DNA from: Tangfeifania diversioriginum
GTDB lineage: Bacteria > Bacteroidota > Bacteroidia > Bacteroidales > Prolixibacteraceae
Reading direction: 5' to 3'
NCBI RefSeq assembly: GCF_900141875.1
Contig: NZ_FQZE01000002.1
Span: 1 to 64,000, forward strand
DNA: 64,000 nt
The translations under genes were made by a program, and so were the position numbers. Within the stretch, counting starts at the first letter, position 1, and each line of letters begins with the position of its first letter. Shown here in pieces: positions 44,358 through 62,132 of this stretch. Below the pieces are notes generated by a model. That model searched no databases and was not told the origin of the DNA. It saw only the letters and a list, made by a program, of their open reading frames with translations.

Positions 44358-45449
44358 TTATTCCTTCACTTCCAGCTCCACCATCAAATTCGAAGTTTTG
44401 CCGGTGTACAAGTTGGTTGCCGCGTAGGGCAGAACGGCTTTTCCGTTTTTCAGGTTGCACTGTGCAATAACCGAACTGCGCGGTGCGATTTCAATTTTTC
44501 CGGGTGCCCCGTTGGTCGGGTCTTCGTTTTCAAGAATGAAAGTCAGATTGGTGGGATTACTGATTTCAAAATGTGCCGTCCCGTTTTCCACGTTAAAAGG
44601 TTGATGAACGGTAACCGATGCATTGAAGAGCTCTGAAAGTAACGCTTCCGGACCGGCCATTTCGTCGGTAAAAAAAGCGACGGTGCGTTTGGCAAAAAGT
44701 GCTTCTTTCAGTGCCCCAAGGCTTCTGTCTTTGGCAAAAACCAGTGTCATGGGGCGGCGGTGGTTTTCCAGGTCGAAACGGTACGCACTGGCCATGTGCA
44801 CATCACTGTTGCCGAGGTAAGCCAGGTTCTTTTCGTTGCACCACTCAAAAGCAACGGGGTAGTATTCATCCCAGTTGAACACTTCGACTCCGTGCAGCCA
44901 GCCGTTTTGGTAAATTTCCTCGTGCACATCCCACCACTTGTTGGTGTCGGGTTGCTGCGCCTGCCAGCCGGGGTGGTTCCAGAAAACAAATGCTCCCTGT
45001 TTGTTGGCTTCTTCAATGGCATCCATGTAATCGGGGACATCGAGTTTGGTCACATCGTCAACAAACAGCGCGTTTAGGTGCCCGGGCGGCATGCCACGTG
45101 AAATTTCACCGGCTTTTACCAACAGGATGTTGCGTTTTTTGGCTTCGGGAAGGGCAATTTCGTAGGATGAATTCTGATCGCCGCCCACGTATTTTTTGCC
45201 CGGTTGGTTTTCAATGTGGTCGGTCAGGGCAATGGCATCCAGTCCTTCGTAATACGCTTCCTGCACGCGTACCGTGGGCCACACGTCGCCATCAGAAAAA
45301 ATGGTGTGCATGTGAAAATCGCATTTTAGCGTTTCATACCCCTGAATGTCAGGTATCCGGATTTCCTGGCGTTTCATATGCCGCAGCATTTCGGGCTTTT
45401 TCACTACGTTGTGGTTTTGTGCTATTCCGGTCTGGGTGATTATTATCAT
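44358..45449 (-). CDS. PHP-domain phosphodiesterase (Sb-PDE-like), N-terminus out of frame
   Basis: A PHP-fold metal-dependent phosphoesterase: CDFHMHTIFSDGD with the HxH pair, AIALTDHIE, PGHLNALF, FWNHPGW and LGNSDVHM supply the metal ligands. It resembles the Sb-PDE group acting on phosphodiesters. The first in-frame ATG (45449) gives only the end of a signal peptide. Fifteen bases earlier the same reading frame hits a stop, while an ATG at 45480 would start a perfect signal peptide if the adjoining run of ten A were nine. It is last in the susCD-phosphoesterase operon. Either a phase-variable gene or a sequence error. Confidence 0.85.
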   Translation of the reverse strand: MIIITQTGIAQNHNVVKKPEMLRHMKRQEIRIPDIQGYETLKCDFHMHTIFSDGDVWPTVRVQEAYYEGLDAIALTDHIENQPGKKYVGGDQNSSYEIALPEAKKRNILLVKAGEISRGMPPGHLNALFVDDVTKLDVPDYMDAIEEANKQGAFVFWNHPGWQAQQPDTNKWWDVHEEIYQNGWLHGVEVFNWDEYYPVAFEWCNEKNLAYLGNSDVHMASAYRFDLENHRRPMTLVFAKDRSLGALKEALFAKRTVAFFTDEMAGPEALLSELFNASVTVHQPFNVENGTAHFEISNPTNLTFILENEDPTNGAPGKIEIAPRSSVIAQCNLKNGKAVLPYAATNLYTGKTSNLMVELEVKE

Positions 45450-45467
45450 TAGTAATGCAATTGCAAA

Positions 45468-45480
45468 TTTTTTTTTTCAT
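45468..45480 (-). other. Start codon plus A10 homopolymer (frameshift site)
   Basis: On the minus strand ATG (45480-45478) is followed by ten A (45477-45468). With nine A the frame reads MKKKFAIALLMIIITQTGIAQ and continues into the PHP enzyme. With ten, it goes out of frame within four codons. The run is long enough for slipped-strand mispairing, transcriptional slippage or a homopolymer miscall. Confidence 0.75.
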
Positions 45481-45525
45481 GGTGCTGTTTTTACGTGAAA
45501 GTATTGTATTCAAAATTAATTGTTG

Positions 45526-45609
45526 CTGTCATTTCGACGACGCAGGAGGAGAAATCTCTTTTTGTAGGAGCAGATTTCTCATCTTCGTGCCTCAGATTCG
45601 AAATGACAG
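45526..45609. repeat. Dispersed palindromic repeat, copy 2
   Basis: Outer arms CTGTCATTTCGA (45526-45537) and TCGAAATGACAG (45598-45609), inner arms GAAATCT and AGATTTC. Same structure and near-identical arms as the copy at 117-201. A further half arm TCGAAATGACA lies at 45662-45672. It sits between the EEP lipoprotein gene and the PHP gene of the same operon, so it puts a strong RNA hairpin inside that transcript. Confidence 0.8.
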
Positions 45610-45687
45610 TAACATTAAGTGTGTCATCTTCTCATTATGCCTGATAAAATTAGGTGAACACTCGAAATGACAAATTCATTCGATCGC

Positions 45688-46599
45688 TTACTCGTTATTT
45701 GTTGAATAAGAAGCAATTACTGCATAATGATCCGATTCGTAGCCCGGAATTTTTACGGCGCTGTCGTTTTCAGGTCTTCCCACACGTTTTACCGAGTTCA
45801 GAGCCCAGTTTGCAGGCATGGCCTGGTAAACAATATCGATGCGGTCGTACACTTCATTTTCTGAAAGGTTGGTGGTCCAGGTGATACCGTTTTTGGCCAC
45901 TTCATCCGGATAGGCTTCACGGTAGGCATCTTCCATGCCGGTGTCAACCACTGCTTTTGAAACGGGCCACTCCACTGCCATTGAAAAATGCATGTCGTTT
46001 TCTGCTGCTTTTTCAGTCCAGTCGAGGTGCGACGGCTCGTTGTAGTCGCCGGTTAAGAATACCGGAACGCCTGCGTTCATAAGGCTGTCGATTTGTTCAA
46101 GCACCGGGTTGATTTCGGGAAGCCGGGTGTTTCCTGCTGCAGTTTCTGCATCCGCTGCTGTTTCAATTTTGCCGTCGCGAATGTCGTACGGCTCATAAGG
46201 ATAAGCCGAAAGGTGAACTGAAAAAACGGCTATCTCATCGCCGTTGGGCAGTTCCACCATCACGCCGTTTTCAAATTCTTTCCCGATGGGGAAGCGGCTT
46301 AAAATTCCCGTGTCGTTGTCGCTCAGGTTTCCGGCGGCTTTGCTGAATGCGTGAAAATAGTACCCCAGCGAGTCGGCTGTTTCTTCAATACGTTCGTCGC
46401 TTGCTTCCTGCAACCCGGTAATGTCGGCACCGGTTTCGGCAATGGTTTTTATGGTCGATTCCACACTGGTGCTGTACAGCACGTTAAACGACATCACCGT
46501 AAAGGAAACTGTTTCTTTTTCTTCTGCGCCTTGATTTTTGGGGCTGTTCCCGCAACTCCACAAAAGTGCGAGTAGTAATATAAATCCAATATTTTTCAT
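45688..46599 (-). CDS. EEP-family phosphoesterase lipoprotein
   Basis: A 303-residue lipoprotein (MKNIGFILLLALLWSCG, start at the ATG 46599; a longer in-frame extension lies over the upstream gene end and is unlikely). The mature part has the EEP fold: VMSFNVLY, ADITGLQEASDERI with the metal Glu, GDYNEPSHLDW and the final ESDHYAVIA His. This branch includes sphingomyelinase-like phospholipases C and nucleases. It starts seven bases after the metallophosphoesterase stop, in the susCD operon. A role in releasing phosphorylated head groups is inference from context. Confidence 0.88.
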   Translation of the reverse strand: MKNIGFILLLALLWSCGNSPKNQGAEEKETVSFTVMSFNVLYSTSVESTIKTIAETGADITGLQEASDERIEETADSLGYYFHAFSKAAGNLSDNDTGILSRFPIGKEFENGVMVELPNGDEIAVFSVHLSAYPYEPYDIRDGKIETAADAETAAGNTRLPEINPVLEQIDSLMNAGVPVFLTGDYNEPSHLDWTEKAAENDMHFSMAVEWPVSKAVVDTGMEDAYREAYPDEVAKNGITWTTNLSENEVYDRIDIVYQAMPANWALNSVKRVGRPENDSAVKIPGYESDHYAVIASYSTNNE

Positions 46600-46606
46600 C
46601 TTAGTA

Positions 46607-47479
46607 TTATTTAATTTCCCATCCGTAATCCACATATTTCCAGCTGAAGTCGTCGCCGTCGATGTCAATTTTCAGGTAGCCTTCTTCTGTTCCGTGGTAG
46701 GGGCCGCCCCACCAGTTGGCAGAAACTGCACCGGCTGTGATAAACTGGACGTCTTTCACTTTAATTTCTTCGTAAAGGTGCATGTGCCCCTGCAATACCA
46801 GTTTCAGGTTTTTGTCTTCGAACATGTCCCAGATTTCTTTGAAATTGGTGAACGTATCTTTTGGTGTGTATTCGCCATGCAATGCGGGATAGTAAACCGA
46901 CAGGAACGGCACATGGGCCGACACGATAATGGGTGTTCCGGCATCCACTTTGGCCAAATCGGCTGCCAGCCACTGCTTTTGTTCGTCGCCCACACAATAA
47001 TAGCCATCGCAGATTTGGGCTGAATTGAGCACGATAAAATGCCAGCCTTTGTGGTCGAACGAGTAGTAACTTTCGTGAAGGTATTTTTCAAAAAGGCCTT
47101 CGTTGTAAAGCGGATCATCTTCCCCGGTTGCCCAAAAACGGTCGTGGTTGCCAATGGTGGGGTAAAATGGGATTCCGGCGGCGTCGATTTTTCCGGCGTA
47201 TTTTTCATAGAGGTCATGGGCAGGTTGCTCACTGTCCATCCCATCGATGTCCACATTATCGCCGCCCGTCATTATAAAATCTGCATTTTCCGCTTTTGCA
47301 TTGGCAACTGCTTTTTCGAATCCCTCAAAACAGTTGTTGTTGTTGCCGTTGTTTAAGTGAATGTCAGTGAGGTATGCAAAGCTGAAATTGGAGGTGTTTT
47401 CATCCTGTGGTCCCGGTGCTCCGGCTTGCGAACAGGAAAAAAACAGAAGTATGGTAAGTGTAAAGAATATGTGTTTCAT
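46607..47479 (-). CDS. Calcineurin-like metallophosphoesterase lipoprotein
   Basis: A 290-residue protein with lipobox LLFFSC, so attached to the membrane outside the cytosol. The dimetal phosphoesterase motifs are clear: YLTDIHLN (DxH), IMTGGDNVD (GD), TIGNHDRFW (GNHD), IVSAHVPF and LQGHMHLYE (GHxH). The family covers phosphodiesterases and phosphomonoesterases. It is the first enzyme gene downstream of the susCD-lipoprotein part and is separated from it by a terminator-like hairpin. Substrate unknown. Confidence 0.9.
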   Translation of the reverse strand: MKHIFFTLTILLFFSCSQAGAPGPQDENTSNFSFAYLTDIHLNNGNNNNCFEGFEKAVANAKAENADFIMTGGDNVDIDGMDSEQPAHDLYEKYAGKIDAAGIPFYPTIGNHDRFWATGEDDPLYNEGLFEKYLHESYYSFDHKGWHFIVLNSAQICDGYYCVGDEQKQWLAADLAKVDAGTPIIVSAHVPFLSVYYPALHGEYTPKDTFTNFKEIWDMFEDKNLKLVLQGHMHLYEEIKVKDVQFITAGAVSANWWGGPYHGTEEGYLKIDIDGDDFSWKYVDYGWEIK

Positions 47480-47504
47480 GATATTTTATTTTGATTGATG
47501 TTAC

Positions 47505-47538
47505 AAAAAAGCAGAGAGCCCGGCCACGCCGGACCCTC
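47505..47538 (-). terminator. Intra-operon terminator/attenuator
   Basis: On the minus strand GAGGGTCCGGC, loop GTG and GCCGGGCTCTC make an 11-bp stem (two G-U pairs), followed after TGC by TTTTTT (47510-47505). It lies 24 bases after the stop of the surface lipoprotein gene and 26 bases before the ATG of the metallophosphoesterase. Partial termination here would keep the enzymes less abundant than the SusCD complex. Confidence 0.75.
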
Positions 47539-47561
47539 AAACTTAACTTAATATACGAAAA

Positions 47562-48332
47562 TTACTCATTGCCACTGCTAATTGTGAAATCATATGTACC
47601 GCCACCAATATCATATCCGCTGAATTCGAAACTTAAATGCAGCTCATCAGATGTGGCATTGTAAGTTCCGGCCTCTCCTGCATGGAAGGTCATGTCATCG
47701 CCGTAAGATGTTACATTTACATCATTTAAAAGCTTTACACTTCCTGTAAAAGTATCCATATCGATTTCGCCAAGCTGAAGTTCGAAAAGAGCCGGTGCCG
47801 AGGCATCTGCCCAAAAATTAAACGCAATGTTGATGCGGTGGCAGTCGTCGTCAATTTTTTCTCCAGTAGCTGTTGCCGGGCTGTAGCTCGGATAAATTTC
47901 ATCCACACAGGTTATGTCGCCCACCCACCTGTCGGCAAGGCAGCCTACCGGGGGGACGTAATAGTCGAGAACAATGGTCCAGTCGGCAGTATTTCCCGAC
48001 GGAGCCGTAACCTGGTAATTGCGTGGCGATGAAAAATCACCGTAAACACCCAATCGGGGTGCATCGCCAAGCGGTTCGATGGTGCAACCTGCCTCGAGGT
48101 TCGCGTTCAGGTACACATTACTGAAATCAACTGATTTGTCTTTCACCCAAACTGTGTCGATTCGGGCTTCGGGATAAATGGCATTCTCCTGGGCAACTTT
48201 CCCGTTTTCATTACCTACCAGTACCTCCTTAATTCCAGGATTGTCGGGTAGTTCGCCCACTTCTTCAAAAGTGGGTACGCAGCTTACTGCCAGGACACTA
48301 ATCAATATAAATAAACGATTTAATATTTTCAT
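47562..48332 (-). CDS. SusE-position surface lipoprotein
   Basis: A 256-residue lipoprotein (lipobox LAVSC) directly downstream of susD. Residues about 75-120 (DFSSPRNYQVTAPSGNTADWTIV) match the small beta-sandwich repeat found in surface glycan-binding lipoproteins (DUF5018-like). The rest is beta-rich and acidic, ending in a lipocalin- or SusE-like strand series. Gene order suggests an accessory binding protein of the SusCD complex. I cannot name a ligand. Its start lies 28 bases past the susD stop. Confidence 0.75.
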   Translation of the reverse strand: MKILNRLFILISVLAVSCVPTFEEVGELPDNPGIKEVLVGNENGKVAQENAIYPEARIDTVWVKDKSVDFSNVYLNANLEAGCTIEPLGDAPRLGVYGDFSSPRNYQVTAPSGNTADWTIVLDYYVPPVGCLADRWVGDITCVDEIYPSYSPATATGEKIDDDCHRINIAFNFWADASAPALFELQLGEIDMDTFTGSVKLLNDVNVTSYGDDMTFHAGEAGTYNATSDELHLSFEFSGYDIGGGTYDFTISSGNE

Positions 48333-48360
48333 TTTTTACTATTTTTCAGGTTAATGAATT

Positions 48361-50172
48361 TTACTCCCAGCCAAAAATCTGGGTAAGATTTGGATTAACT
48401 GTTGTGTGGGTTTGCGGAATCGGACGGTAATAATATTTTGGAGTAACAAATGATCCCCTGTCCTTAATTGATTCCATAAAACCTTCATTGTCGCCGCTGA
48501 TATAGAAAGAGGCATCACTGTCCTGAGGACCAACGCGGTAATATATTAATGTTTCACCCAGCTCGTTGGTTTCTTTGTCGCCGGCGCCCGGTATCGATTC
48601 GCCCAGGTCGAGCAGTACGATGTCTTCAATGCCATCGCCGGTAAGGTCGTGTTTTCCCAACCCGGAAAAGTAAATTCCTTTGGGTTCTTTTTCCAGCACT
48701 TTTCCTGCTTCCCAGCGCATGATGTCGTCAAAACGGTAGCCTTCCAGTGCCAGTTCAACCCGGCGCTCGCGGCGTATTTCGAGCAGTTCATTTTTTTGAG
48801 AAGTAGTGATATTCGGATAACGTGCTTCCTGGATTGGATCCACCGGCGGGTCCATGGTCATGTGTGGCATTCCGGCGCGGTCGCGGAGTGCGTTAATTGT
48901 AATGTCCAGGTCGTCCTGTGTAAGTTCACCCAGTTCAGCCCTGGCTTCAGCGTAAATCAGGAGTGTTTCGGCAAAGCGCAACACCGGAAAATCCACCCCG
49001 TTCTGAACTGTTTGTTCGGTATTATTGATAAAACCTTTAATCTGGTGATAGCCGGTAAAGTTTTTCTGCAGCTGCTGCACGTAAATGCCGCCACCCTGAG
49101 AGTAAGTAGCTGTATTCACCAGTTCATATCCCGGGTAGGCATAAGTTTGCATCAGCCTGGGGTCGCGGTTTTCAAACTCTTCCACAAAAGGTTTTGTTTC
49201 GTAATCAGGCTGCGAGGTGTAAAAAGAGCCATCAGTCATCAGGTACGATTGCAACAAATCTTTCGACGGGCTAACCTCATAGTTACCGAACATCCATTCC
49301 CACCAGCCGCTGTTTTTCACCTGGTCTTCGTGAATGTTGGCAAAAATAATTTCAGGGTTTGACGTTAAATCCTGGCTGTTAAACAACGAGCCATAGTCCG
49401 AGTCCGGGTTTCCGGTATTGTGAATGCTGAACCCACCGTTGTCCATGATTTCTTTTGCCGCATCGCGGGCAATTTGCAGGTAGGTGTCGGCACTGCCCTG
49501 CAGTTCCAGTTCAGCATGATATTTTCTGAAAGTTCCCTCATACAGTGCGTGGCGCGCTTTGTATGCCAGCACAACCCATTTGTTTACTGCTCCGGTGGGC
49601 TGGTCGGCTTTTACGTGGTTGCTGGCAAATTCGTAATCTTCAAATATTTTTTGCACCACAAAATCACGCGGGTCACGGCCCTTAAACAGCAGTTCTTCAT
49701 CCGATGAGCCAATTACCTGGTCGTACCAGGGGACATCGGAAAAGCGTTGCACTTTGTCCATGTAAAAACGGGCGCGGAAGAAACGAGCTAATCCTTCGTA
49801 ATGCGCTGCGAGATCTTCAGGGAGCCCCGCTTTTTCAAAGTTTTCAAGAAAAAGATTGATGTTACGCAATGTACTCCAGTTCCAACCTCCGCTAATTGTG
49901 GCCGATGACGGATTGCTGCTGAGCATAATGTTTTTCATTTCCGTGCTCCCGGTATTGGCTGCATTGTCGGTTGTGTTGTACCCGTCATCGCCATATTCAT
50001 TAACTCCCGGAAAACTGTAAAGGTTATAAATAAACATTTTCAGGTCCTCTTCGCTCTGAAAGAAGTTTTCGGTTCCGATAGATGTTTCGGGGAAACGATC
50101 CATATAATCATCGTTACATGCCGAAAGCAGCAAGATGAGTGTGATACTGAATAGTGAAACTATTTTTTTCAT
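48361..50172 (-). CDS. SusD/RagB-family outer-membrane binding lipoprotein
   Basis: A 603-residue lipoprotein (ATG 50172, MKKIVSLFSITLILLLSAC). The SusD fold is shown by the TPR-like helices (FFRARFYMDKVQRFSDVPWYDQ), the RFAETLLIYAEARAELG helix, IRRERRVELALEGYRFDD and the C-terminal YYRPIPQTHTTVNPNLTQ. It caps the SusC transporter and hands over ligand. The preceding gene is susC, 119 bases away. SusD pairs import glycans, but also peptides and other solutes; the neighbouring phosphoesterases suggest a phosphoester ligand here. Confidence 0.95.
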   Translation of the reverse strand: MKKIVSLFSITLILLLSACNDDYMDRFPETSIGTENFFQSEEDLKMFIYNLYSFPGVNEYGDDGYNTTDNAANTGSTEMKNIMLSSNPSSATISGGWNWSTLRNINLFLENFEKAGLPEDLAAHYEGLARFFRARFYMDKVQRFSDVPWYDQVIGSSDEELLFKGRDPRDFVVQKIFEDYEFASNHVKADQPTGAVNKWVVLAYKARHALYEGTFRKYHAELELQGSADTYLQIARDAAKEIMDNGGFSIHNTGNPDSDYGSLFNSQDLTSNPEIIFANIHEDQVKNSGWWEWMFGNYEVSPSKDLLQSYLMTDGSFYTSQPDYETKPFVEEFENRDPRLMQTYAYPGYELVNTATYSQGGGIYVQQLQKNFTGYHQIKGFINNTEQTVQNGVDFPVLRFAETLLIYAEARAELGELTQDDLDITINALRDRAGMPHMTMDPPVDPIQEARYPNITTSQKNELLEIRRERRVELALEGYRFDDIMRWEAGKVLEKEPKGIYFSGLGKHDLTGDGIEDIVLLDLGESIPGAGDKETNELGETLIYYRVGPQDSDASFYISGDNEGFMESIKDRGSFVTPKYYYRPIPQTHTTVNPNLTQIFGWE

Positions 50173-50291
50173 TGATATACTGTTTTTTATCGTATTAAAA
50201 TTGTTTGTTATTATTGGTGAAAAATTTAACGAGCATGATTTATTCGATTTATTTTTTCTGCAATATTTCATCATCCATTTTTTTTAATTCG

Positions 50292-53200
50292 TTAAAAATC
50301 AATATTTACACCAAATGAATACCTTCTCTGGAAAGGATAAGCAGCTCCGTGCCCATCGTCGGTAACGGCTTCCGGATCGAAATAATCAGCTACTTCGGAC
50401 CACTCGGCAATGTTTTCGCCGCTAACGAAGAAACGGACCCTGCTCATATTCCATTTCTGTGTTAATTCTCTGGGCAGAGTATAGCCAACAGTGATGTTTT
50501 TTATCCGGATGTAGGCGGCACTCAGCAGGTATCGGGTTTGTGGTGTAGCCATTCCTTTAGAGTCGTTCAGTCCTTCTCCCAGGTTGCGGTCGGCAAGCCA
50601 CGACTGGAAAATGGGGTATTTGGCATCCAGGTTTTGGTGGGCAAGTCCTGCATCAATATAGGCTTGCGAATGTTTGGCCATGTCCACCTCGCTGTCGTCT
50701 GCCGGGCGATAAAAATCGAAGAGATGGCTGTACCCACCTTCGTAAGGCTGCTGGTAAAAGCCCCAGTACAAATAGTGGCGCGGGTAGTAATCTTTTTTGC
50801 CAATTCCCTGCACGAAAGTTCGTACGTCGAACCCGTTCCAGTCGAAGTTCAGGTTTAACCCGAAACGGAAGCGGGGAGAGGTATTCCCAATAATCACAGC
50901 ATCTTTCGGGTCATCAACGGTATATCCTTTTTCAATGATGCCGTTGCCGTCCTGGTCGATGTATTTTGGCCACCCGGGAACAATTGAAAGTGCTCCCCAG
51001 GGAATGAGCTGGGTTTCATCCAGTGCCTGAATTTCTTCTTCTGTTTCAAAGAAACCATCGCTTTCGAGCCCCCACAATTCGCCAAATTCCCTGCCAATAT
51101 AGTACTGACTCAGGTTTTTGTTGGGGTTGTCGAAGTCGGTAATCCACGCGCGGCTGTCGGATAAAATAAACCGTGTATTAAAATTGAAAAGTTCGCCTGC
51201 CAGGTTAAAACTGTTTTTATAAGAAAGTGTCAATTCCCAGCCGTTGGTTTGGAGGTCGGCAGCATTTTCATTGGGTTCGGCCGCTCCCAGCACATCGGGC
51301 AAATCTTTTCCCTGGGTTAACATGCCGGTGGTGTTACGCTGGTAAATATCGAAAGTGGCAGATATGCGGTCATCAAACATTCCCAGGTCGATACCGAAGT
51401 TGGTGGTTTGAACGGTTTCCCAGGTGTAATTGTCGGAAACGAGTTGTGGTGATGATACCCTTTGAGGTAGTTCTCCACCAACAATATAATTTGCTTCAGA
51501 TGGATTCATCGTGGGTATATACCCGTAATAAACCGGATCACCATTTTCGTCATATACAAGTTGATTACCGAGTGTTCCGTAAGAACCTCTGAATTTGAGT
51601 GTGCTGATTACCGGTTTCAGGGGTTCCATGAAACTTTCGCGATCGACCTTCCAGGCAAGCGATGCCGAAGGAAAAAAGCCGAAACGTGTTTCTTTCGGGA
51701 ATCTTGACGAACCATCATAGCGCCCGTTAAACTCAACGATGTATCTTTCTTTTAGAATATAATTCAACCGGTAGAAAGCACCGCGGATAGCCCAGTGGGT
51801 AATGCTTTCGTCCACATAGTCTTCGCCGGTGGCCAGGGCAATGGTGGGCAGCGAACCTGAAATTACATTGTCGCGCCGTGCTTCGAACCACTCTGAGCGG
51901 TTGTTTTCCTGGTTAAAACCTAAAAGTGCGGTAACATTATGGTCGCCAAATTCTTTGTTGAATGTACTGTAAATATTAAATACATTGTAGGTGTCGAAAG
52001 TGGCACTCCGGTATGCTTCGTTGGTCCCTTCTTCCCTGATATCCTCGGGCCCGTACCCAATATTGTATTTTGAATAGAACCAGCCGTAATTGCTGTTTCC
52101 TTTCCGGATGGTGTAATCGGAGTTAATTTTTAAAGTGCCTTCAAAAAAACGGGCTTCGGCAGTGAAGGTTGATTGCGTACTGTTGTAGCGGTTGTCCACG
52201 TCACCACCTTCGGTAAGCTGCGCGGCTTCAGTTCCTACTTCTGAATTGGCCCATGAGCCATCGGGGTTTTTATCCCAGGCAGTGGGTGCAATATTATACA
52301 AATCCCAGATATCGAGGTAGGAGGGTTCATTTCGCTCAGTCATCGTAAAAAGGGTGTTATTCCCGATAGTTAGCCATTTAAACGGGTCGTAATCTACTTT
52401 ACTCCGGAGGCTGTACCTGTTAAACAGATCTTCTGCAATTGCCAACGCTCCGTTTTCATTATCGAAAGCACCCGATAAATAGAAGCGAACTTTTTCAGTT
52501 TTACCATCCATTTGGATGTTGTGTTTTTGCGAGAATGTGTAATCACTCAGGAAATAGGGTGTCCAGTCGCGGTTTCCCATATATTCCCACGAAGTTTCGT
52601 CGCGCGGATTAACCCGAACGCCTTCAGTTCCTTCAGGATTTTCGGAGCGATCTTTTGCCCATGCGTAGGTTTCGTCGGTGGGATTAAAATTATTCCATGG
52701 TGTGTTGTCGGTTGACAAATCCTGCAGACGCAAATATATATAAGGGTCGCTTGTTTTGTCGGGCAGAATGGTAGGTTTCGACCACGAAAGGTTGTTGTTG
52801 TAGCTGATGTTAACGCCCTCCTCGGTACCCGATTTTGTGGTGATGAGTACTACCCCAAAAGCCGCCCGGGCACCGTAAATAGCAGCCGAAGAGGCATCTT
52901 TCAATACCGAAATATCTGCCACATCTTCCGGGGTCAGCCGGTTGAGTTCCCATGCATCGGCCGGAACGCCATCGATAAGAATTAACGGTTCGCCCCCGTT
53001 AATCGAAGTCATCCCCCTGATGTTGATTCGCGCAGCCTGTCCGGGTTCTCCGCTCACAAAATCGATGTTGAGGTTGGGAGCAACTCCTTGCAATCCTTGT
53101 GCGATGTTAACAATAGGCCGGCTTTCCAGCTCTTTGGAGTCGATAGCATCAACAGCGCCAGATAAATTTACCTTTTTCTGGGTGCCATATCCAACTACTA

Positions 53201-53555: not shown

Positions 53556-53655
53556 AGAGTAAATTTTGGATTTAATATTCACTGATAAAATTGTTTTAAT
53601 TAACACCGTTTTTGATTAAAAACAGATTAAAACATTGTAACATTTTTGTAAAAGA

Positions 53656-53671
53656 TTGAATAAACATTCAA
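53656..53671. promoter_or_regulatory. Putative BetI-type operator at the susC promoter
   Basis: The minus-strand sequence TTGAATGTTTATTCAA is a perfect inverted repeat (TTGAAT, 4-base spacer, ATTCAA). It begins within the predicted -7 box of susC and extends over the predicted transcription start, a classical repressor position. The same 16 bases recur with one mismatch upstream of betB. TTGA/TCAA half-sites resemble operators described for proteobacterial BetI, from memory. Binding by the adjacent TetR-family regulator is inference. Confidence 0.65.
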
Positions 53672-53700
53672 ATAAATAAAATAATATAGTGATATACAAA
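53669..53700 (-). promoter_or_regulatory. Predicted susC promoter
   Basis: On the minus strand TTTG (53700-53697), 20 bases, then TTTATTTG (53676-53669), one mismatch from the Bacteroidota -33/-7 consensus TTTG / TAnnTTTG at the expected spacing. Transcription would start near 53662, giving a leader of about 107 bases. The rest of the 550-bp susC-betI gap (53556-54106) is AT-rich; apart from this, only a TATATTCG box at 54064-54071 before betI was recognised. Confidence 0.55.
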
Positions 53701-54106: not shown

Positions 54107-54700
54107 GTGGGACGGAAAAGTTTAAAAGAAACAAGGCAAAAAGAAATTGTAATTGCCTTTTACAAAGTAGCAAAAAAAGAAGGCTTAAAAAATGCCTCAA
54201 TTGCAAAAGTTGCCGAGTGTTTGAAAGTTAATCCCAGTTTGATTATCCACTATTTCAAAACACGCAGGGAACTTATTAATTCGCTTGTTGATTTTATATT
54301 AAAGCGCTATCTGGAAATTTACAAGTTGGACGGCGGCATCGACTCCAAAGATAAGCTGCTGGCACTGATTGATCATCTGTTTTCGCGCAGCTGGCACCGG
54401 TTGTTTGACGATGGTGTGTTTTACAGCTGTTATGCAATGATTTACCGGAATCCGCCGGTAAAAGAAAAATATAAACTTTTACACGATTCATTGCTTGTGA
54501 AATTCAGGCAATCGCTTGAAGAGGCTCAAAATAAAAACATTATAGAAATTGATAACCTGGAAGAAACCGCTGAGGTTATTTTTTCAATGGTTGACGGTGC
54601 CTACTTTTCACTCGGTATGCTTTCCGATCAGGAAGAGCGTGATCGGAAAGCAGCAGTATATAAGCAATTTGTTAAGCGCATGCTGAAATTAGCCGACTGA
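54107..54700 (+). CDS. betI: TetR-family regulator, BetI-like
   Basis: A 197-residue regulator. It starts with GTG at 54107 (MGRKSLKETRQKEIVIAF); a nearby ATG at 54103 is out of frame. The N-terminal HTH (about 28-50; SIAKVAECLKVNPSLIIHYF) is TetR-type, and the helical remainder including MVDGAYFSLGML is close in layout to BetI, the choline-sensing repressor of betaine synthesis. Context supports this: it lies between susC (divergent) and the betBA-transporter operon (convergent). A half-site ATTCAA at 54037-54042 may allow autoregulation. Ligand identity is inference. Confidence 0.75.
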   Translation: MGRKSLKETRQKEIVIAFYKVAKKEGLKNASIAKVAECLKVNPSLIIHYFKTRRELINSLVDFILKRYLEIYKLDGGIDSKDKLLALIDHLFSRSWHRLFDDGVFYSCYAMIYRNPPVKEKYKLLHDSLLVKFRQSLEEAQNKNIIEIDNLEETAEVIFSMVDGAYFSLGMLSDQEERDRKAAVYKQFVKRMLKLAD

Positions 54701-54774: not shown

Positions 54775-56379
54775 TTATTCCTTCCTCAGTGCCATTGGCG
54801 GTGAAACTTTCTGTGTCAGTCGCGATACTACAATTATGGTTATCAATCCGCTTGCCATAGCGAGTGTCCTGAAGGGGAACAACACCAATCCATCCTGAAT
54901 CATTGGATATTTAATGATAATCGGAATTCCGAGCGTAGGATCACCTCCACCCATTCGTAAAATAAATGCCACAGCAAAACCGGCAAGGGAGCCAATGGCG
55001 TTGGCTTTTTTGTCGAACAGCGCTGTTACCAGCTGCGGGAACAGCAGCGTGTAAACAAAGTCGCTGCACAGAAACCACAAGGCATAAACGCTTTTGATTT
55101 TCAACGCCAAAATGGTTGCGGTTATTCCAATTATCCAAATGCTTTTCTTGATCACTTTCGTCAGGCTTTTGTTGTTGATGTTGGGTTTAATAAGCGGACG
55201 GTAAATGTTCCAGCTTGCCATTGATGAAGCCGAAAGAATGGATGAATCGACAGATGACATTACGGCAGCTGCAATGGCGCCCAATCCAACTGTGGCAAGA
55301 ACGCCCGGTGTTAAATAGCGAATTACGTAGGGTAAAATCAATGCCGACTCGGAGGGTGCACTTTCCGCCCCCAGGGCTTCCCATGATGGAACAGCAGTGC
55401 CGATTACCCCAATCATAACAGCAGGGATGGCTGCCGCAAAACAAACAAATCCTGCAATAACAGATAACCTCACCGCTGTTTTAGGGTTTTTTGAGGAGAG
55501 GACACGCTGAAAGTAAACCTGCCAGGGAATGCCGCCAAAAACAAGGAGAAGCATATTGTCCCACCAGTTGGGGTAATAGTTGCCGAGCGCTTCACGTGAT
55601 GGAAGCACAGACGCAAAATCGCCCATCTTTTCCTGATAAATTGACCATGCATTGTCCCATCCGCCAACACCTTTAAGGGCAAACGGAATAACAATTACAA
55701 GCCCTACCAGGAGGAAGAATAACTGAATTACATCGGTTAATGCCACAGCCCACAATCCGCCCACTGCGGTGTATGCAATGGCAATGAGTGAGGAAAGAAT
55801 GATGGCCGTTTGGATGTCGAGTCCCAGGATGGTGGCAAATGTTGCCCCCAGGGCAGTGAGGATGGCAGCCGTCCAGAATATTTCGCCCAGTAGCGCCGGA
55901 AGAAAAAGTACTGCCGACATTTTGGTCCCAAAACGCTGTGCCAGCGGGTCGAGCATGGTTTTAAACCTGTAGGTGCGCATTTTGCGTGCAAAAAACAGCC
56001 CGCCGATAATTAGGCTTAAACTGTAGCCCCAGGGTGCCTGCACCCACATTAACCCGTAATTGGAATCGTGCGTGTATTCGGCTGCCCCGTTAATATAACC
56101 GCCGCCCACCCAGGTTGCACTCATGGTAAAGATTGCTATCCAAAGTGGGATATTTCGTCCGGCCAGCATCACTTCGGCAACCGAGCTTTCTTTTTTTAAA
56201 TTGCCGGCGTAGGTTCCCATGAAAAAGATGATGGCATAAAACACAATCATGGAAATGTAGCCCGGCCAAAATACATTGGAATCGGTAAAATAATAGAGAA
56301 TTATCCCTGTTACAGCTAATGCTGCAATTAAAATAAGAGTTGGTTTCAGATTTTTTAAAAGAGCGTATCCTGAATTCAT
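54775..56379 (-). CDS. Sodium:choline symporter of the CHT1/SLC5A7 type
   Basis: A 534-residue sodium:solute symporter with about 13 transmembrane helices. From memory of human CHT1, long blocks agree: ATWVGGGYINGAAE, WVQAPWGYSLSLIIGGLFFA, MLDPLAQRFG, GGIPWQVYFQRVLSS, AAVMSSVDSSILSASSM and FPFRTLAM. No soluble regulatory domain is attached. It is the last gene of the betB-betA-transporter operon (23 bases after betA), so choline is the natural substrate. Proteobacterial bet loci instead use BCCT-type BetT. The residue-level similarity is recalled, not computed. Confidence 0.85.
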   Translation of the reverse strand: MNSGYALLKNLKPTLILIAALAVTGIILYYFTDSNVFWPGYISMIVFYAIIFFMGTYAGNLKKESSVAEVMLAGRNIPLWIAIFTMSATWVGGGYINGAAEYTHDSNYGLMWVQAPWGYSLSLIIGGLFFARKMRTYRFKTMLDPLAQRFGTKMSAVLFLPALLGEIFWTAAILTALGATFATILGLDIQTAIILSSLIAIAYTAVGGLWAVALTDVIQLFFLLVGLVIVIPFALKGVGGWDNAWSIYQEKMGDFASVLPSREALGNYYPNWWDNMLLLVFGGIPWQVYFQRVLSSKNPKTAVRLSVIAGFVCFAAAIPAVMIGVIGTAVPSWEALGAESAPSESALILPYVIRYLTPGVLATVGLGAIAAAVMSSVDSSILSASSMASWNIYRPLIKPNINNKSLTKVIKKSIWIIGITATILALKIKSVYALWFLCSDFVYTLLFPQLVTALFDKKANAIGSLAGFAVAFILRMGGGDPTLGIPIIIKYPMIQDGLVLFPFRTLAMASGLITIIVVSRLTQKVSPPMALRKE

Positions 56380-56402
56380 GTAAAATGTTTCAGATGAATA
56401 AT

Positions 56403-58013
56403 TTAATTTTCTGGTTTCAATGGTTTTTTTCCGGCGATGAGATCAGCCGCTTTTTCGGCTATCATTAAAACCGGGGCATAAATGTTTCCGTTGGTGATGT
56501 ATGGCATTACCGAGGCATCTACAACACGGAGGTTTTCAACGCCATGGACCCGCAGCTGGTTGTCAACAACTGCCATGTCGTCGTAACCCATTTTGCAGGT
56601 GCAACTTGGGTGGTATGCACTTTCGCCTTCATGAGCAACCCACTTCAGAATTTCTTCATCGGTTTGCACACCTTTTCCGGGTTCCAGTTCTTCTCCCCGC
56701 AATTCTTCCATTGCTTTGGTCTCAATCAGCTGCCGGCTTTTTCTCACGGCTGCTATCCAGTTGCGACGTTCGTCGGGTGTTGAAAGATAATTAAACAGGA
56801 TGCTCGGATATTCATACGGATTGGCCGATTTTATCTTCACGTGGCCCCGCACATCCGTATTCATTGGGCCAACATGAAGCTGAAATCCGTGGCCTTTTGT
56901 TGGCACTGTTCCGTCGTACCTGATAGCGAGGGGGAGGAAATGAAACTGAAGATTCGGGTATTTTTTGTCGTCGTGACTTTTGATAAATCCGCCGGCTTCA
57001 AAATGGTTGGTAGCACCCGGCCCTTTTCTTCTGAAAAGCCAGTTGAATCCAATAAACGGTGCTCTCCACGGATTAAGCGACGGGTATTCGCTGACGGGTT
57101 TTTTGCACCGCCACTGCACGTAAACCTCCAGGTGATCCTGCAGGTTTTCACCAACACCGGGCAGGTGGTGTACCGGATCGATTCCTGCCTTTTTTAACTC
57201 GTCGGCATTTCCAATACCCGACAATTGCAGCAGGGTGGGAGAGTTAATAGCTCCGCCGCAGCTGATCATCTCGCCACCGTAAACTTTTTTAATTTTTCCT
57301 TTGTGTTTAAACTCTACGCCAACCGCTTTTTTCCCTTCAAAAAGAATTTTGTGCACCATTGCCCCGGTGAGGATGGTGAGATTTTCTCTGTCTTTTACAG
57401 GGTGAATGTAGGCACGGGCAGCGCTCATGCGGCGGGCACGGTAAATGGTTTGGTCAAATTTACCAAAGCCTTCCTGCTGTTCGCCGTTTACATCGTCGGT
57501 TAACGGGTAGCCGGCTTCCTGAACAGAATTGAAAAAGGCTTTGAAAAGCGGGTTTTTATTTTCCGGGATCGAAAGTTTCATAGGGCCTTTGTCGCCGTGG
57601 TATTTGTCTGCCTTGGCCAAACGTCCCTCCAGCCGTCTGTAGTAGGGCAGGCAATGCGCATGATCCCAGTTTTCGAGCCCCTTTTCGCGGCCCCACTTAT
57701 CGTAATCTTCTGCGTTTCCGCGAATCCAAATCATTCCGTTGATACTGCTTGACCCGCCCAGCAATTTTCCGCGTGGCTGTGCAATTTTCCGGTTATTCAT
57801 GTGCGGTTCCGGATCCGATTCGTATGCCCAGTTGTAAAAGGTGCCGTTCAGCAAAAAGCTCAATGCAGCAGGCATGTGAATTCTGAAGTCTAACTTGTAA
57901 TCGGGCCTTCCTGCTTCCAAAACCAATACTTTATTTGCGGGGTCGGCGCTGAGCCGGTTTGCGAGTACGGCTCCGGCAGTGCCGCCTCCAATAATAATGT
58001 AATTATAATTCAT
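56403..58013 (-). CDS. betA: Choline dehydrogenase (GMC flavoprotein)
   Basis: Oxidises choline to betaine aldehyde, membrane-associated and FAD-dependent. The 536-residue GMC oxidoreductase has the FAD loop IIGGGTAGAVLANRL (about 6-20), the GMC signature PRGKLLGGSSSINGMIWIRG (about 79-98), GAINSPTLLQLSGIG, and the C-terminal catalytic region YHPSCTCKMG plus VDASVMPYITNGN. It is 12 bases downstream of betB and followed by the choline-transporter gene, which makes BetA the likely identity within the GMC family. Confidence 0.92.
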   Translation of the reverse strand: MNYNYIIIGGGTAGAVLANRLSADPANKVLVLEAGRPDYKLDFRIHMPAALSFLLNGTFYNWAYESDPEPHMNNRKIAQPRGKLLGGSSSINGMIWIRGNAEDYDKWGREKGLENWDHAHCLPYYRRLEGRLAKADKYHGDKGPMKLSIPENKNPLFKAFFNSVQEAGYPLTDDVNGEQQEGFGKFDQTIYRARRMSAARAYIHPVKDRENLTILTGAMVHKILFEGKKAVGVEFKHKGKIKKVYGGEMISCGGAINSPTLLQLSGIGNADELKKAGIDPVHHLPGVGENLQDHLEVYVQWRCKKPVSEYPSLNPWRAPFIGFNWLFRRKGPGATNHFEAGGFIKSHDDKKYPNLQFHFLPLAIRYDGTVPTKGHGFQLHVGPMNTDVRGHVKIKSANPYEYPSILFNYLSTPDERRNWIAAVRKSRQLIETKAMEELRGEELEPGKGVQTDEEILKWVAHEGESAYHPSCTCKMGYDDMAVVDNQLRVHGVENLRVVDASVMPYITNGNIYAPVLMIAEKAADLIAGKKPLKPEN

Positions 58014-58025
58014 AAAAGAAAAATA

Positions 58026-59498
58026 TTATCTGTAAGGTGAATCAATTTTATTCATTTCAATATAAACCGTTTTAAGCTGTGTGTAAGCTCCGATGGTTTC
58101 CAGTCCGTTTTCTTTACCCATTCCTGATTGTTTGTAGGGGCCAAAAGGAACTTCCACCGGGTTCACATTGTAGTTGTTTACCCAAACCATCCCGGCTTCA
58201 AGCTGGTTTACCATCCGGTGGGCCCGTTGTAAATCGTTGGTGAAAACACCTGCAGCCAATCCGTAAATGGTGTTGTTGGCTTTTTCAATGGCTTCTTCTT
58301 CTGTTTTAAAAGGAAGAACAGTCATTACAGGCCCGAAGATTTCTTCTTTTACAATCCGGGCGTTTTCATTATCGGTTTCAAAAATGGTGGGTTCCACAAA
58401 GAAACCATCATTCAGTTCGGTATTTTTGTGTTGCTGGAAACGATTGCCTCCAAGGTGCAGTTTTGCTCCTTCTTGTCTTCCAATTTCAATGTACCCCATC
58501 ACTTTTTCGTAATGCGCTTTGCTGATTAAGGCTCCCACTTGTGTTTCCATTTCTGATGGGTCGCCAATAATCATTTTCCGGGTTTTTGCCTTCAGTTTTT
58601 CAAGGAATTTATCCTTTATTGTTTCTGCAACATAAACACGGGTGCCGTTGGAGCAAATTTCACCCTGTGTGTAAAAATTGGCCATCATGGCGCCCTGAAC
58701 GGCTTCGTCCAGATCGGCATCTTCACAAATAATCAATGGTGATTTTCCACCCAGTTCCAGCGTAACGTGCTTGAGTGTATCTGCAGAGGCAGCCATCACT
58801 TTTTTCCCGGTTTCCACTTCGCCGGTGAGCGAGATTTTCCGGATGTCTGGATGTGCGGTAAGCATTTTCCCTACTTCTGCATCGCCCTGGACCACATTAA
58901 ATACACCGTCGGGGATGCCGGCTTCTTTATAAATTTCTGCCAGATAAACGGCTGTTAACGGCGTTAATTCGGCAGGTTTGAAAATCATGACATTCCCTGT
59001 TGCGAGCGCAGGAGCCGATTTCCAGCATGCAATCTGGATGGGGTAATTCCAGGCACCAATTCCGGCCACCACTCCAAGTGGCTCGCGGCGGGTGTACGAA
59101 AATGCTCCCCCCAGGTCGTAATGTTCTCCGTGAATGGATGGTGCAATGCCGGCATAATATTCAATGGCATCGGCACCTGTTACAACGTCCACTTCAATGG
59201 CTTCCGAAATGGGTTTGCCGGTATCGGTCACTTCAATTGCGGCAAGCTCATCGTTGCGTTCTCTTAAAAGGTCGGCTGCTTTTTTGAGGATTCTCCCCCG
59301 TTCGGTGCCCGACATTTTCGACCACACTTCAAAACCTTTTTTGGCAGATTCAATGGCATTTTCAACATCTCTTTCCGATGCCACCTGGATTTTGTTTATC
59401 TCCCTGTTGGTTGCAGGATTTATGTTTGAAAATGTTCTGCCTGAAGTGGCCTTTTGGCGTTTCCCGTTATAGAAAAGATGGTTTACATGTTTACTCAT
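58026..59498 (-). CDS. betB: Betaine aldehyde dehydrogenase
   Basis: NAD(P)-dependent oxidation of betaine aldehyde to glycine betaine. The ATG at 59498 gives [15 protein letters not shown], a 490-residue protein, the same size as E. coli BetB; an upstream in-frame start would add 12 residues. Aldehyde dehydrogenase motifs are present: [29 protein letters not shown] with the general-base Glu, and [11 protein letters not shown] with the catalytic Cys. It is the first gene of the operon. A TATATTTG box lies 34 bases upstream and two operator-like repeats lie further up. Confidence 0.93.
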
Positions 59499-59531
59499 GG
59501 GACGATACTTTTTATTTGTGAGAATTGACCG

Positions 59532-59539
59532 CAAATATA
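59532..59539 (-). promoter_or_regulatory. Putative -7 box of the bet operon
   Basis: TATATTTG on the minus strand, 34 bases before the betB ATG, fits TAnnTTTG exactly. No TTG stands at the usual -33 distance, so this promoter may need help or the true start may be elsewhere in the 390-bp AT-rich leader (59499-59891), which holds no gene. Confidence 0.5.
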
Positions 59540-59713
59540 TGAAAAAGGAATGTTTATAAAAATTATTGTTGGAAGTTGTGGTGTTTTAAATGAAATTTTA
59601 ATATTAAATTTTTAAGTTTTCAATAATTAAATTTTAATTCTAATTTGTTTTTAAAATATTGAATTAAAGCTTTTTATTTGTGTGTTTTATGTTGGGTTTT
59701 AAGTTAAAATTAA

Positions 59714-59729
59714 TTGAATGTTTATTCTA
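59714..59729. promoter_or_regulatory. Putative BetI-type operator upstream of betB, site 1
   Basis: TTGAATGTTTATTCTA matches the susC-promoter operator at 15 of 16 positions, including the 4-base spacer when read on the same orientation. It is 216 bases upstream of the betB ATG, farther than a simple blocking site for the -7 box at 59532-59539. Confidence 0.6.
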
Positions 59730-59759
59730 TATATGTTTTAGAATAGTTTTAAATTTAGA

Positions 59760-59775
59760 TTAAATAGTCATTCAA
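59760..59775. promoter_or_regulatory. Putative BetI-type operator upstream of betB, site 2
   Basis: TTAAATAGTCATTCAA has the same TTxAAT-n4-ATTCAA layout with one mismatch in the left arm, 46 bases from site 1. It is weaker and could be a chance match in AT-rich DNA; paired sites could support looping. Confidence 0.4.
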
Positions 59776-59891
59776 TTTTTAATAATTGAGATAAATTTTT
59801 ACGCATTGAAAAATTGTACAGTAATTATAACCGGCAAACTGTTAAGTTTCGGAAGGGGGAGAGAAGTATGCAAAATAGTCCGATGCCTGTA

Positions 59892-62132
59892 TTATCTTAT
59901 AACCGTAATTTTATGAGCGGATTCTTTCCCGGAATTTGTGCTGACTTTTATAAAGTAAAGGCCTGGTTCCAGGTGACTAATGCTGACATCAAAGGAATTG
60001 GAGTTGTCGCTTTCAGTTTCCAGGATTTTGATTCCGGAAAGGTTAAAAATTTTAATTCGTGAAATTTCATCGGGAGCCACTACTTTTATTTTATTCCTGG
60101 CCGGATTAGGATAGAAGTATGTTTCCTGTTGGTTTTTAACAAGGGGGGTATTTGTTGCAAGCATGCCGTTGTTGGCTGTAAATCGTGCAGCGAAATTCTG
60201 GTAATACTGATTGGCAATATCTTCGTTATGGATTATCAGTGTGTTTTCGTCGTTAATCTCGTTGGCCGAATTGCTCCAGTTGTGGCTGCCGGTAACTACC
60301 AGTGGATCAAATGTGGGTTTGTTGTTATCAACTACTGCATATTTATGGTGTAAAATTCCGTATGTCACATTATCGAACACGTATGAATTATTCCCCAGGG
60401 CATCGCTTAAAATGGAGTTTACTGTTCCGGTATTGGCATCGCCTTCGGTTAGTACATTCGCTGCCACACCTCTTGCTTTGGCTTCGCTTATGGCCAGTGC
60501 CAGGTCGGTGCGGGTAATGAGCATGGTGCCTACATTCAGGTTGTTATCTGCCGAGTGGATGACATTTACCAGTTGCTGGTTGGTGCCGTCCGACGGGCTG
60601 AAATAGCTTTCAACCCGGTTGCCGCCAATGATAAACTCGTGGGGCGTATTGTCGGTTTTGTCGGCACCGAACCTGGAATAATTCTCGTTGGGTTGCGCAG
60701 TATTACTACCCCACATCTCTTCAAATTCAATTTTATAGGCCCTGGCCAATGTCTGGTCTTGTATGAAGATCATGTTGTTGGCATCCGAAACTACCTGGTT
60801 ATAAGAAATGTTGGTGGAGCCTGTCCACACAATGGGCTTGTCCGGATTGGATGATTCTGCATCGATGGCTGCAAATTTATTGTGCATAATACCATCGCGT
60901 TCATTTTCATTGGGGGCAACAAGCACTGGAATGTCCTGGTCGAGGTAGTACAACCCCTGGTTTTGTTTGGTCCCACAGGAAATTACCCTTACCCGGAGTC
61001 CTCTGTCTTTAGCTCTGTTAAGTGCATTGGGAACACTTGCCGAGGAAATATTGCTGAAACTGTAAATGGCGAAATCGATGGATTCTTCAGCACGGTCGAT
61101 GTAGGCAACGAGGGTATCGTCGAGCGCCCCGCCAATGTTTTGCGCCGGGGTGTAAACAGAATATGTGGTGTCCACATCGCTGTTGAAATAGATTTTCATA
61201 TCTCCTGTTGAATTCGATTCGGTGGCATAAGTCGCCAGTGGTGCAAATGCTGTATCGGAAGAGGCGTATGAGTAGGGTTGGGCATAAATCACGGAGCCGG
61301 CTTCCCGTCCAGTGATATTAACCTCCTGAATAAATTCTCCGTTTGAAGCTGTTGTTGTGCCCGTGGTAATGTCATTCCAGTCGCTTGAGTTAGGCGTGGT
61401 GCCGTACATTACTTCGGCGGTAGCTTCCGCATCAGTGCGCCATGTCAGGGTAAATCCACTTTTCGAAATATTTTCAACAGTAACCGGCGAAATAATATTG
61501 ACGGCACTTGTGAGTACAAAATCGTTTATGTCTCGCGGGAGCAGCTGATAGCCAGTGGTTATATCGTTTTGGTTGTAGGAAAACTGAGAACAAAGTCCAA
61601 TCAAATTCAGTGTTCCGGTGGGAATTTGTTCATCGATAATAGCTTCAGCATTCCGGTTAATTCTTATTTCGAAAGTGTTTTCACCATCGGTCAGGTTGTA
61701 GTTGGCGTCGCCCTCGAATGAGCCGGTGGGGGTGGCAAATTCCACATCGTTGATTTGCACGAGTTGCCCTTCGTATTCTTCCCCAATTTGTTCAATGGAA
61801 ATTATTTTTGGAGCAGGTAACTGGTTTCCCGAAGAGTGGACAGTAACCGAGCTGACGGGATCAATTTCCAGCAGGTTGCGGTAATCCTTTACTGTGCCGC
61901 TAATGGTAACGGAGTCGCCCCGTTGCAGACTTGAAACGGTGTTGCCATAAGCTGCAATTCCTGCTGTTTCATCTTGTAAATATCGAATTCTTCCCAACTC
62001 GCCGCCGTTTGTAACAATTCCGCTAACAGTTACATTTTCGCCAACCGAATTGCGCGCATCGCTGATGTTTTGTTGCGGGCGGGCATTAAATGCTATGAGG
62101 AGGGCAATTCCTGAAAGTAAATACTTTACCAT
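59892..62132 (-). CDS. T9SS-secreted phospholipase-D-like protein
   Basis: A 746-residue exported protein. After the signal peptide come two OB-fold-like segments (VTVSGIVTNGGELGRIRYLQ; about 25-205), a fibronectin-III-like domain (about 215-310), two PLD catalytic halves with HKD motifs HNKFAAID and HHKYAVVD, and a type A T9SS sorting domain (FYPNPARNKIKVV ... GLYFIKVSTNSG). PLD-superfamily enzymes act on phospholipids or nucleic acids. The OB-folds hint at nucleic acid, whereas the position next to the bet operon hints at phosphatidylcholine; the sequence does not settle it. Confidence 0.9.
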   Translation of the reverse strand: MVKYLLSGIALLIAFNARPQQNISDARNSVGENVTVSGIVTNGGELGRIRYLQDETAGIAAYGNTVSSLQRGDSVTISGTVKDYRNLLEIDPVSSVTVHSSGNQLPAPKIISIEQIGEEYEGQLVQINDVEFATPTGSFEGDANYNLTDGENTFEIRINRNAEAIIDEQIPTGTLNLIGLCSQFSYNQNDITTGYQLLPRDINDFVLTSAVNIISPVTVENISKSGFTLTWRTDAEATAEVMYGTTPNSSDWNDITTGTTTASNGEFIQEVNITGREAGSVIYAQPYSYASSDTAFAPLATYATESNSTGDMKIYFNSDVDTTYSVYTPAQNIGGALDDTLVAYIDRAEESIDFAIYSFSNISSASVPNALNRAKDRGLRVRVISCGTKQNQGLYYLDQDIPVLVAPNENERDGIMHNKFAAIDAESSNPDKPIVWTGSTNISYNQVVSDANNMIFIQDQTLARAYKIEFEEMWGSNTAQPNENYSRFGADKTDNTPHEFIIGGNRVESYFSPSDGTNQQLVNVIHSADNNLNVGTMLITRTDLALAISEAKARGVAANVLTEGDANTGTVNSILSDALGNNSYVFDNVTYGILHHKYAVVDNNKPTFDPLVVTGSHNWSNSANEINDENTLIIHNEDIANQYYQNFAARFTANNGMLATNTPLVKNQQETYFYPNPARNKIKVVAPDEISRIKIFNLSGIKILETESDNSNSFDVSISHLEPGLYFIKVSTNSGKESAHKITVIR

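Follow-up and report, generated by a model that had tools for sequence, protein, structure and literature searches.

A candidate choline-phosphodiester scavenging regulon combining a SusCD import operon and betaine synthesis genes in Tangfeifania diversioriginum

The present analysis concerns a locus of Tangfeifania diversioriginum (Prolixibacteraceae, Bacteroidales) in which genes for a SusCD import system and three predicted phosphoesterases stand next to genes for choline uptake and betaine synthesis. The window, i.e. the whole stretch of DNA that was analysed, is a 64-kb piece of the 258.5-kb contig NZ_FQZE01000002.1 and belongs to a 4.78-Mb genome in 81 contigs, labelled G000 in the following. 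On its minus strand lie, in this order, susC, susD, a gene for a DUF5018-type lipoprotein, and genes for a calcineurin-like, an EEP and a PHP phosphoesterase. A TetR gene on the plus strand is divergent from susC and convergent with the gene of a CHT-type transporter, the last of a betB-betA-CHT run on the minus strand that is directed toward TetR, and a gene for a secreted phospholipase-D-like (PLD) protein with a type IX secretion system (T9SS) tail is also present. All genes that a previous sequence-only reading had named here were found with the given families and coordinates by open-reading-frame (ORF) and profile matches. The features are listed together with operator-like sites that were scored with a position weight matrix (PWM); AF2 stands for AlphaFold2.

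44358 to 45449, minus strand: PHP-domain phosphoesterase, closing the SusCD run (PF02811 weak; match to 3e38, a PHP protein of solved structure)
45688 to 46668, minus strand: EEP-family lipoprotein phosphoesterase (PF03372; AF2 model)
46607 to 47479, minus strand: calcineurin-like metallophosphoesterase (metallophos, MPE) lipoprotein with predicted GpdQ-like fold (PF00149; AF2 model, PDB fold match)
47562 to 48332, minus strand: DUF5018-related lipoprotein (PF22243; homologues in several relatives)
48361 to 50274, minus strand: SusD (PF07980)
50292 to 53606, minus strand: SusC TonB-dependent transporter (TIGR04056; likely start ATG at 53555, read from the sequence)
53653 to 53674: operator-like site, susC/TetR (PWM score 24.7)
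54107 to 54700, plus strand: TetR-family regulator, divergent from susC (PF18665, 125 bits)
54775 to 56379, minus strand: CHT-type Na+/choline symporter (SLC5), by homology (sfCHT and human CHT1 matches)
56403 to 58013, minus strand: BetA choline dehydrogenase (TIGR01810, above cut-off)
58026 to 59534, minus strand: BetB betaine-aldehyde dehydrogenase (NF009725; likely start ATG at 59498, read from the sequence)
59711 to 59732: operator-like site upstream of betB (PWM score 19.5)
59757 to 59778: operator-like site upstream of betB (PWM score 18.6)

SusC (TIGR04056, 820 bits at a cut-off of 368) and SusD (PF07980, 175 bits at a cut-off of 23) form the SusC/RagA and SusD lipoprotein pair of a SusCD import system; since G000 contains 27 SusD matches, such a pair means little by itself. 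The profile scores are likewise above the cut-offs for the DUF5018-related lipoprotein (PF22243, 50 versus 28 bits), the MPE (PF00149, 56 versus 21.5 bits) and the EEP (PF03372, 39 versus 24.5 bits). The PHP protein reaches 22.6 bits with PF02811, under the cut-off of 26.4, yet it matches 3e38 with 321 bits, and its homologues (54-68%) stand beside the same SusCD in G073/L085, L098, L099, L100, L101 and L102. The best named MPE matches come from metagenome-assembled genomes (MAGs) of Prolixibacteraceae and Draconibacterium. Lipobox-like N-termini were found on the MPE, the EEP and the DUF5018-related lipoprotein, and SusD has CNDD at its cysteine, which we take to indicate a surface or periplasmic location of these four proteins.

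On the choline side, the transporter falls into the SSS family and matches sfCHT (9rws) with 657 bits and human CHT1 with 413 bits. Its residues W90, Y119, W169, W286 and W435 correspond to the cavity aromatics W99, Y126, W176, W298 and W445 of sfCHT, a mapping counted by hand on an alignment in whose three rows all five are invariant. According to PMC13220886, sfCHT moves choline with Na+. Hence, the window transporter is by homology a CHT-type Na+/choline symporter with predicted choline uptake. It shares the family and the five aromatics with sfCHT and human CHT1 (SLC5A7), but these are single transporters (PMC13220886), whereas the window gene is part of a bet operon next to SusCD. BetA scores 802 bits with the equivalog model TIGR01810 (cut-off 732), while BetB is above the cut-off of NF009725 (770 versus 593 bits) and just under that of TIGR01804 (658 versus 668.6 bits).

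The regulator had been called BetI-like, but its reading as the BetI of the bet locus is not supported. It scores 47.3 bits with TIGR03384 and 49.2 bits with NF001978, missing the respective BetI cut-offs of 201.3 and 118, so that BetI-like denotes resemblance alone. Outside the window 12 orthologues were found: the search of 120 family genomes gave five, that of 395 phylum genomes four, and three more come from named genomes (L094, L097, L108). Ten of them are divergent from a susC gene, among them those of G388 (with a split ORF) and G498, which have distant SusC proteins of 32-34%, and that of G073, whose TetR has an inner stop. The TetR of G419 is adjoined by a SusC-like piece of 97 residues only, and in G118 the contig ends at TetR while a separate susC contig starts with an operator-like site scoring 22.5 that was unused in training. 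Within the stretches seen, none of the 12 orthologues has bet genes beside it. Because of this neighbourhood, the regulator is assigned to the SusCD locus, and since kdsB directly follows TetR in G069, G073 and G092 with no bet genes between, bet appears as an extra in the layout of the window. A bet regulator as judged from gene neighbourhood had thus to be rejected as stated, although the idea is revived by the operator-like sites at betB described below. Three relatives (L046:15333-15602, L047:9150-9443, L094:2994-3272) encode a small protein of 90-98 residues, forming one cluster, whose gene overlaps TetR at the 3' end of the latter; in the window, the CHT gene is the downstream neighbour instead.

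The palindrome TTGAATG-NN-CATTCAA occurs in the TetR/susC intergenic sequences of 11 relatives, and 15 sites from these regions were compiled into a 22-bp PWM whose seed was picked after viewing the intergenic sequences, the one of the window included, while the window itself was kept out of the matrix. The three sites listed above are the best three matches in the 64-kb window. At a score of at least 18, no match was expected per 64 kb (0 in 40 sequences simulated with a Markov model), and 0.0005 matches were expected in an AT-rich stretch of 357 bp. Across 1.99 million positions of fetched loci, which are redundant and include the training loci, 34 of the 35 rows at this level belong to TetR/susC or betB, L155:17320 (18.2) being the sole exception. 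Genome-wide, TTGAATRNNYATTCAA has its single zero-mismatch place at the susC site, and with one mismatch the strict pattern is found at ten places, three of them inside the window; three of the seven outside were PWM-scored, with 10.9, 16.0 and 8.6. With up to two mismatches 170 places were counted versus 93 for a reversed control, hence only the best-scoring places are meaningful. Near the one BCCT gene elsewhere in G000, the best score is 5.5. Because the three best matches lie upstream of susC and, twice, upstream of betB, the TetR regulator probably controls both operons via these putative sites, and the fact that susC and betB have operator-like sites of the same type supports the idea of a joint system. 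The fourth-best match in the window (63460-63481, score 14.5) directly precedes kdsB, the first gene of a run that continues with the gene of a T9SS tail protein and the PLD gene; in L046, L047, L048 and L086, the top three matches do not directly precede kdsB.

In this regard, the locus can be compared with BetI-controlled bet loci such as that of Ruegeria pomeroyi, with which it shares a TetR-type regulator, a choline carrier, BetA, BetB and ATTGA/TCAAT half-sites (PMC12442346). The betI1 box of R. pomeroyi is the 14-bp ATTGACGCGTCAAT (PMC12442346), whereas the core of the window site measures 18 bp and is of the ATTGAATGNNCATTCAAT type, with similar half-sites and a spacing that is 4 bp longer. 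Moreover, the regulator in the window falls under the BetI cut-offs, and here such a site is also present at an operon for SusCD import, in which the window differs from the locus in PMC12442346.

The claimed linkage of SusCD and phosphoesterases to betA was borne out by synteny in other genomes, in the window and G009 with a similar layout and in L098 and G290 with two others. Close homologues of BetA are rare: BetA was searched with E 1e-60 in the family, where 2 of 120 genomes match, the one of the window included, and with E 1e-100 in the order (2 of 393) and the phylum (19 of 395). Both matching family genomes, G000 and G009, have betA beside orthologous SusCD; in G009 (L193) the genes BCCT-betB-betA-CHT-susC-susD-lipoprotein-MPE-YncE/phosphoesterase follow each other on one strand, CHT and susC being about 160 bp apart. 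These two arrangements, both next to PLD, may be one event. The Bacteroidales MAG CSSed165cm_559 (L098) has a betA of 69% (834 bits versus the cut-off of 732) divergent from susC-susD-MPE-PHP, together with a betaine-aldehyde dehydrogenase (BADH) of another subfamily (40% to the window BetB; TIGR01804 673 versus 668.6 bits). In G290, which belongs to another class, CHT (68%) and BetA (53%; 784 bits, above the cut-off) are divergent from sigma-FecR-susC-susD-MPE, and its SusD is 54% identical to the window SusD; of the 27 SusD matches in G000 8 loci were compared, and the next of these reaches 27%. Here, an extracytoplasmic-function (ECF) sigma factor and a FecR-like anti-sigma factor (L173:4517-6387) head the orthologous SusCD in place of TetR, hence the regulator differs while the link to bet is kept. 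The enzyme following the G290 MPE was initially considered to be of the nucleotide-pyrophosphatase (NPP) type, which was dropped because PF01676 is just above the cut-off and the PDB matches to ENPP7 and NPP are weak; it is assigned by its sequence to the alkaline phosphatase superfamily only. Relatives of G290 were searched with E 1e-150, and its BetA matched in 5 of 128 genomes, G290 included; G913, G916, G925 and G928 count neither way, because their contigs end before any SusCD beside CHT could be visible. Among these, G913 retains the divergent sigma-factor gene and G916 has an unrelated SusC (30%) about 8 kb away.

It might be that bet and SusCD are mere chance neighbours, inserted at one spot downstream of kdsB-T9SS-PLD and sharing no function. 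The block of kdsB, T9SS tail protein and PLD (59892-63403 in the window) indeed recurs in the family, being present without bet in six of the eight PLD neighbourhoods fetched (L194, L195, L197, L198, L199, L200), while L196 has T9SS-PLD without a kdsB match and the eighth, L193, is the bet-bearing locus of G009; furthermore, the TetR-SusCD locus follows kdsB in G069, G073 and G092. However, the linkage is also seen in L098, L173 (G290) and L175, where no kdsB is in view, L098 and G290 having layouts that differ from that of the window, and two operator-like sites lie upstream of betB. For betA to lie by chance no more than 10 kb from a particular locus in a genome of 4.8 Mb, the probability is roughly estimated at 0.4%. 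Taken together, we regard a purely accidental neighbourhood as very improbable. The same data remove the secreted PLD-like enzyme, previously counted as a component, from the system: PLD matches occur in 22 of 120 family genomes, of which 20 have no BetA match at E 1e-60, only G000 and G009 having both, and the kdsB-T9SS-PLD block recurs without bet. By this distribution, PLD is an unrelated, older neighbour. SusCD, TetR, MPE or bet adjoin kdsB or PLD in several relatives, and L086 has an MPE there without SusCD. At the other end of the locus, the PHP gene is followed on its strand by genes for two thioredoxin-like proteins (523 and 505 residues), which are separated by a small ORF (40024-43629).

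The main rival explanation is a general scavenging of phosphodiesters, for phosphate or for lipid head groups and nucleic acids, to which bet was added since choline is one by-product, SusCD having no specificity for choline as ligand. Most of the known SusCD systems act on glycans, and some are linked to phosphate (PMC8115612). The latter are called phosphate utilisation systems (PUS) and are defined as SusCD co-localised with phosphomono- or phosphodiesterases (PMC8115612), a co-localisation also found in the window. In Flavobacterium johnsoniae, PUSI comprises PusCD1 with a pair of phosphodiesterases in the periplasm, and its induction follows depletion of phosphate (PMC8115612), which fits the rival explanation; the entries for PUSI list a pf00149 enzyme, and PUSI-IV of Flavobacterium resemble the window locus in combining a SusCD-like pair with periplasmic phosphodiesterases. 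It also agrees with general scavenging that the partner enzymes vary between the SusCD loci, comprising MPE, EEP, PHP, YncE/PF04185 phosphoesterase, PF01663 and sulfatase, and that bet is missing from view in 9 of the 13 orthologous loci for which 3 kb or more upstream of susC could be inspected. The sequence-only reading had regarded SusCD operons standing equally often away from bet as speaking against it, and this is in part what was found, with nine loci lacking bet in the stretch seen (G048, G073, G069, G092, L094, L097, L108, L102, G121) and four having it; L088/G118, L090, L093, L099, L100, L101 and L112, with less than 3 kb seen upstream, were set aside. Because of these nine loci, betaine synthesis is taken, from synteny, as an add-on to the SusCD locus. 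However, PUS respond to phosphate depletion and the word choline is absent from the main text of PMC8115612, whereas the operator-like sites in the window tie susC and betB to a TetR-type regulator rather than to phosphate, and betA recurs beside this SusCD in differing layouts. We therefore consider general scavenging a serious contender, albeit an unlikely one.

The choline phosphoester proposed earlier remains a putative substrate and is our best inference from the GpdQ-like fold of the MPE, the CHT-type symporter and a phosphocholine-specific phospholipase C (PC-PLC) in two related loci. The AF2 model of the MPE, built with 45 sequences, has a predicted local distance difference test (pLDDT) score of 92.4, and its best PDB match is GpdQ (Z 25.6, root-mean-square deviation 2.5 A, 226 aligned residues), followed by Rv0805 (Z 24.6) and Lmo2642 (Z 24.0). 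Hence, the glycerophosphodiesterase GpdQ, for which glycerophosphoethanolamine is named as natural substrate (PMC4926365), is the nearest solved fold, but the window MPE is a lipoprotein with a putative activity on glycerophosphodiesters. The EEP model is of low confidence (pLDDT 69.6), and its nearest folds, including TDP2, Bacteroides EEPs and human neutral sphingomyelinase, are tied at Z 18-19 and not discriminating. PC-PLC is encoded in L170 (in G388; TetR-SusCD-EEP-PLC, 757 bits versus the cut-off of 580, with a SusCD different from that of the window) and in L095, where it (786 bits, above cut-off) precedes an MPE of 54%; the SusD proteins of both loci are non-orthologues of the window SusD.

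SusCD systems usually import oligomers. Together with PC-PLC in L170 and L095 and with the sphingomyelinase in the EEP fold list and SMPDL3A and acid sphingomyelinase in that of the MPE, this could point to a larger choline-bearing substrate, such as a phosphocholine-decorated glycan, phosphatidylcholine or sphingomyelin, instead of small glycerophosphocholine. Such a substrate would be a sub-case of choline-phosphodiester scavenging and not exclusive with it. It appears rather doubtful, because a family profile search of the six genes in the SusCD run of the window found neither a lipase nor a glycosidase family, the EEP model is of low confidence, and in the family the PLD-like gene shows no linkage to bet.

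Collectively, a regulon for choline-phosphodiester scavenging is the best reading of the sequences and models, and on balance a probable one. The presumed order of events would start with SusCD and the DUF5018-related lipoprotein carrying a choline-bearing phosphodiester across the outer membrane. The GpdQ-like MPE, EEP and PHP enzymes would then cut it, probably in the periplasm, into choline and a phosphate or glycerol-phosphate part, the CHT-type symporter would bring choline into the cell, and BetA and BetB would oxidise it to glycine betaine. The TetR protein encoded between the operons may bind the palindromes of the TTGAATG-NN-CATTCAA type at susC and betB, acting by repression or activation, and a choline-type inducer would couple both operons.

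Several observations weigh against this reading. The MPE is just 18% identical to GpdQ, and PC-PLC is absent from G000. The nine SusCD loci without bet count here as well, and on the SusD tree the bet label requires four changes, a number as low as that being reached in 500 of 500 shuffles; this tree drew L099, L100, L101, L090, L093, Sdes (L112) and G118 as lacking bet, although too little of their upstream DNA is available. No TetR match was found in G009 and G290 or on the L098 contig, and no operator site in the G009, L098 and G290 loci. Column-permuted matrices reach a score of 18 upstream of betB in 3 of 500 cases and anywhere in the window in 7 of 500. The nearest promoter-like -7 box (59539) of betB is situated about 170-240 bp below the two sites, which is odd for simple repression, hence repression of betB is not assured. 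Finally, besides G000 and G290, 17 phylum genomes with BetA matches carry a GMC protein of 39-44% away from this SusCD type, with no SusC or SusD match above 45 bits in the neighbourhoods fetched for all of them (5.7 to 20 kb). All ten of these proteins that were scored are below the betA equivalog cut-off (468-538 versus 732 bits), and five of the ten pass the looser choline dehydrogenase model NF002550 (613-621 versus 605 bits); an aldehyde dehydrogenase adjoins 9 of the 17 genes, in all nine cases below the BADH cut-off (472-502 versus 668.6 bits). If some of the GMC proteins oxidise choline, choline oxidation in the phylum is not always tied to this SusCD.

The earlier statement that SusCD systems of this kind had not been described needs to be narrowed. 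SusCD-phosphoesterase clusters as such are already known as PUS (PMC8115612), while no paper on a choline-wired version was found among the matches listed in open-licence PMC. What would be new is a SusCD dedicated to choline-bearing phosphodiesters, together with a choline-reading TetR distinct from BetI that jointly switches uptake across the outer membrane, cleavage of the ester, symport of choline and synthesis of betaine, the locus serving the supply of an osmoprotectant and not of sugar or phosphate. We put this more specific proposal forward tentatively, its chances being close to, and somewhat short of, even. If true, shared operators that connect a SusCD with choline oxidation would broaden the role of SusCD transporters, and they would explain the supply of choline from lipid head groups for betaine synthesis in some Bacteroidota.

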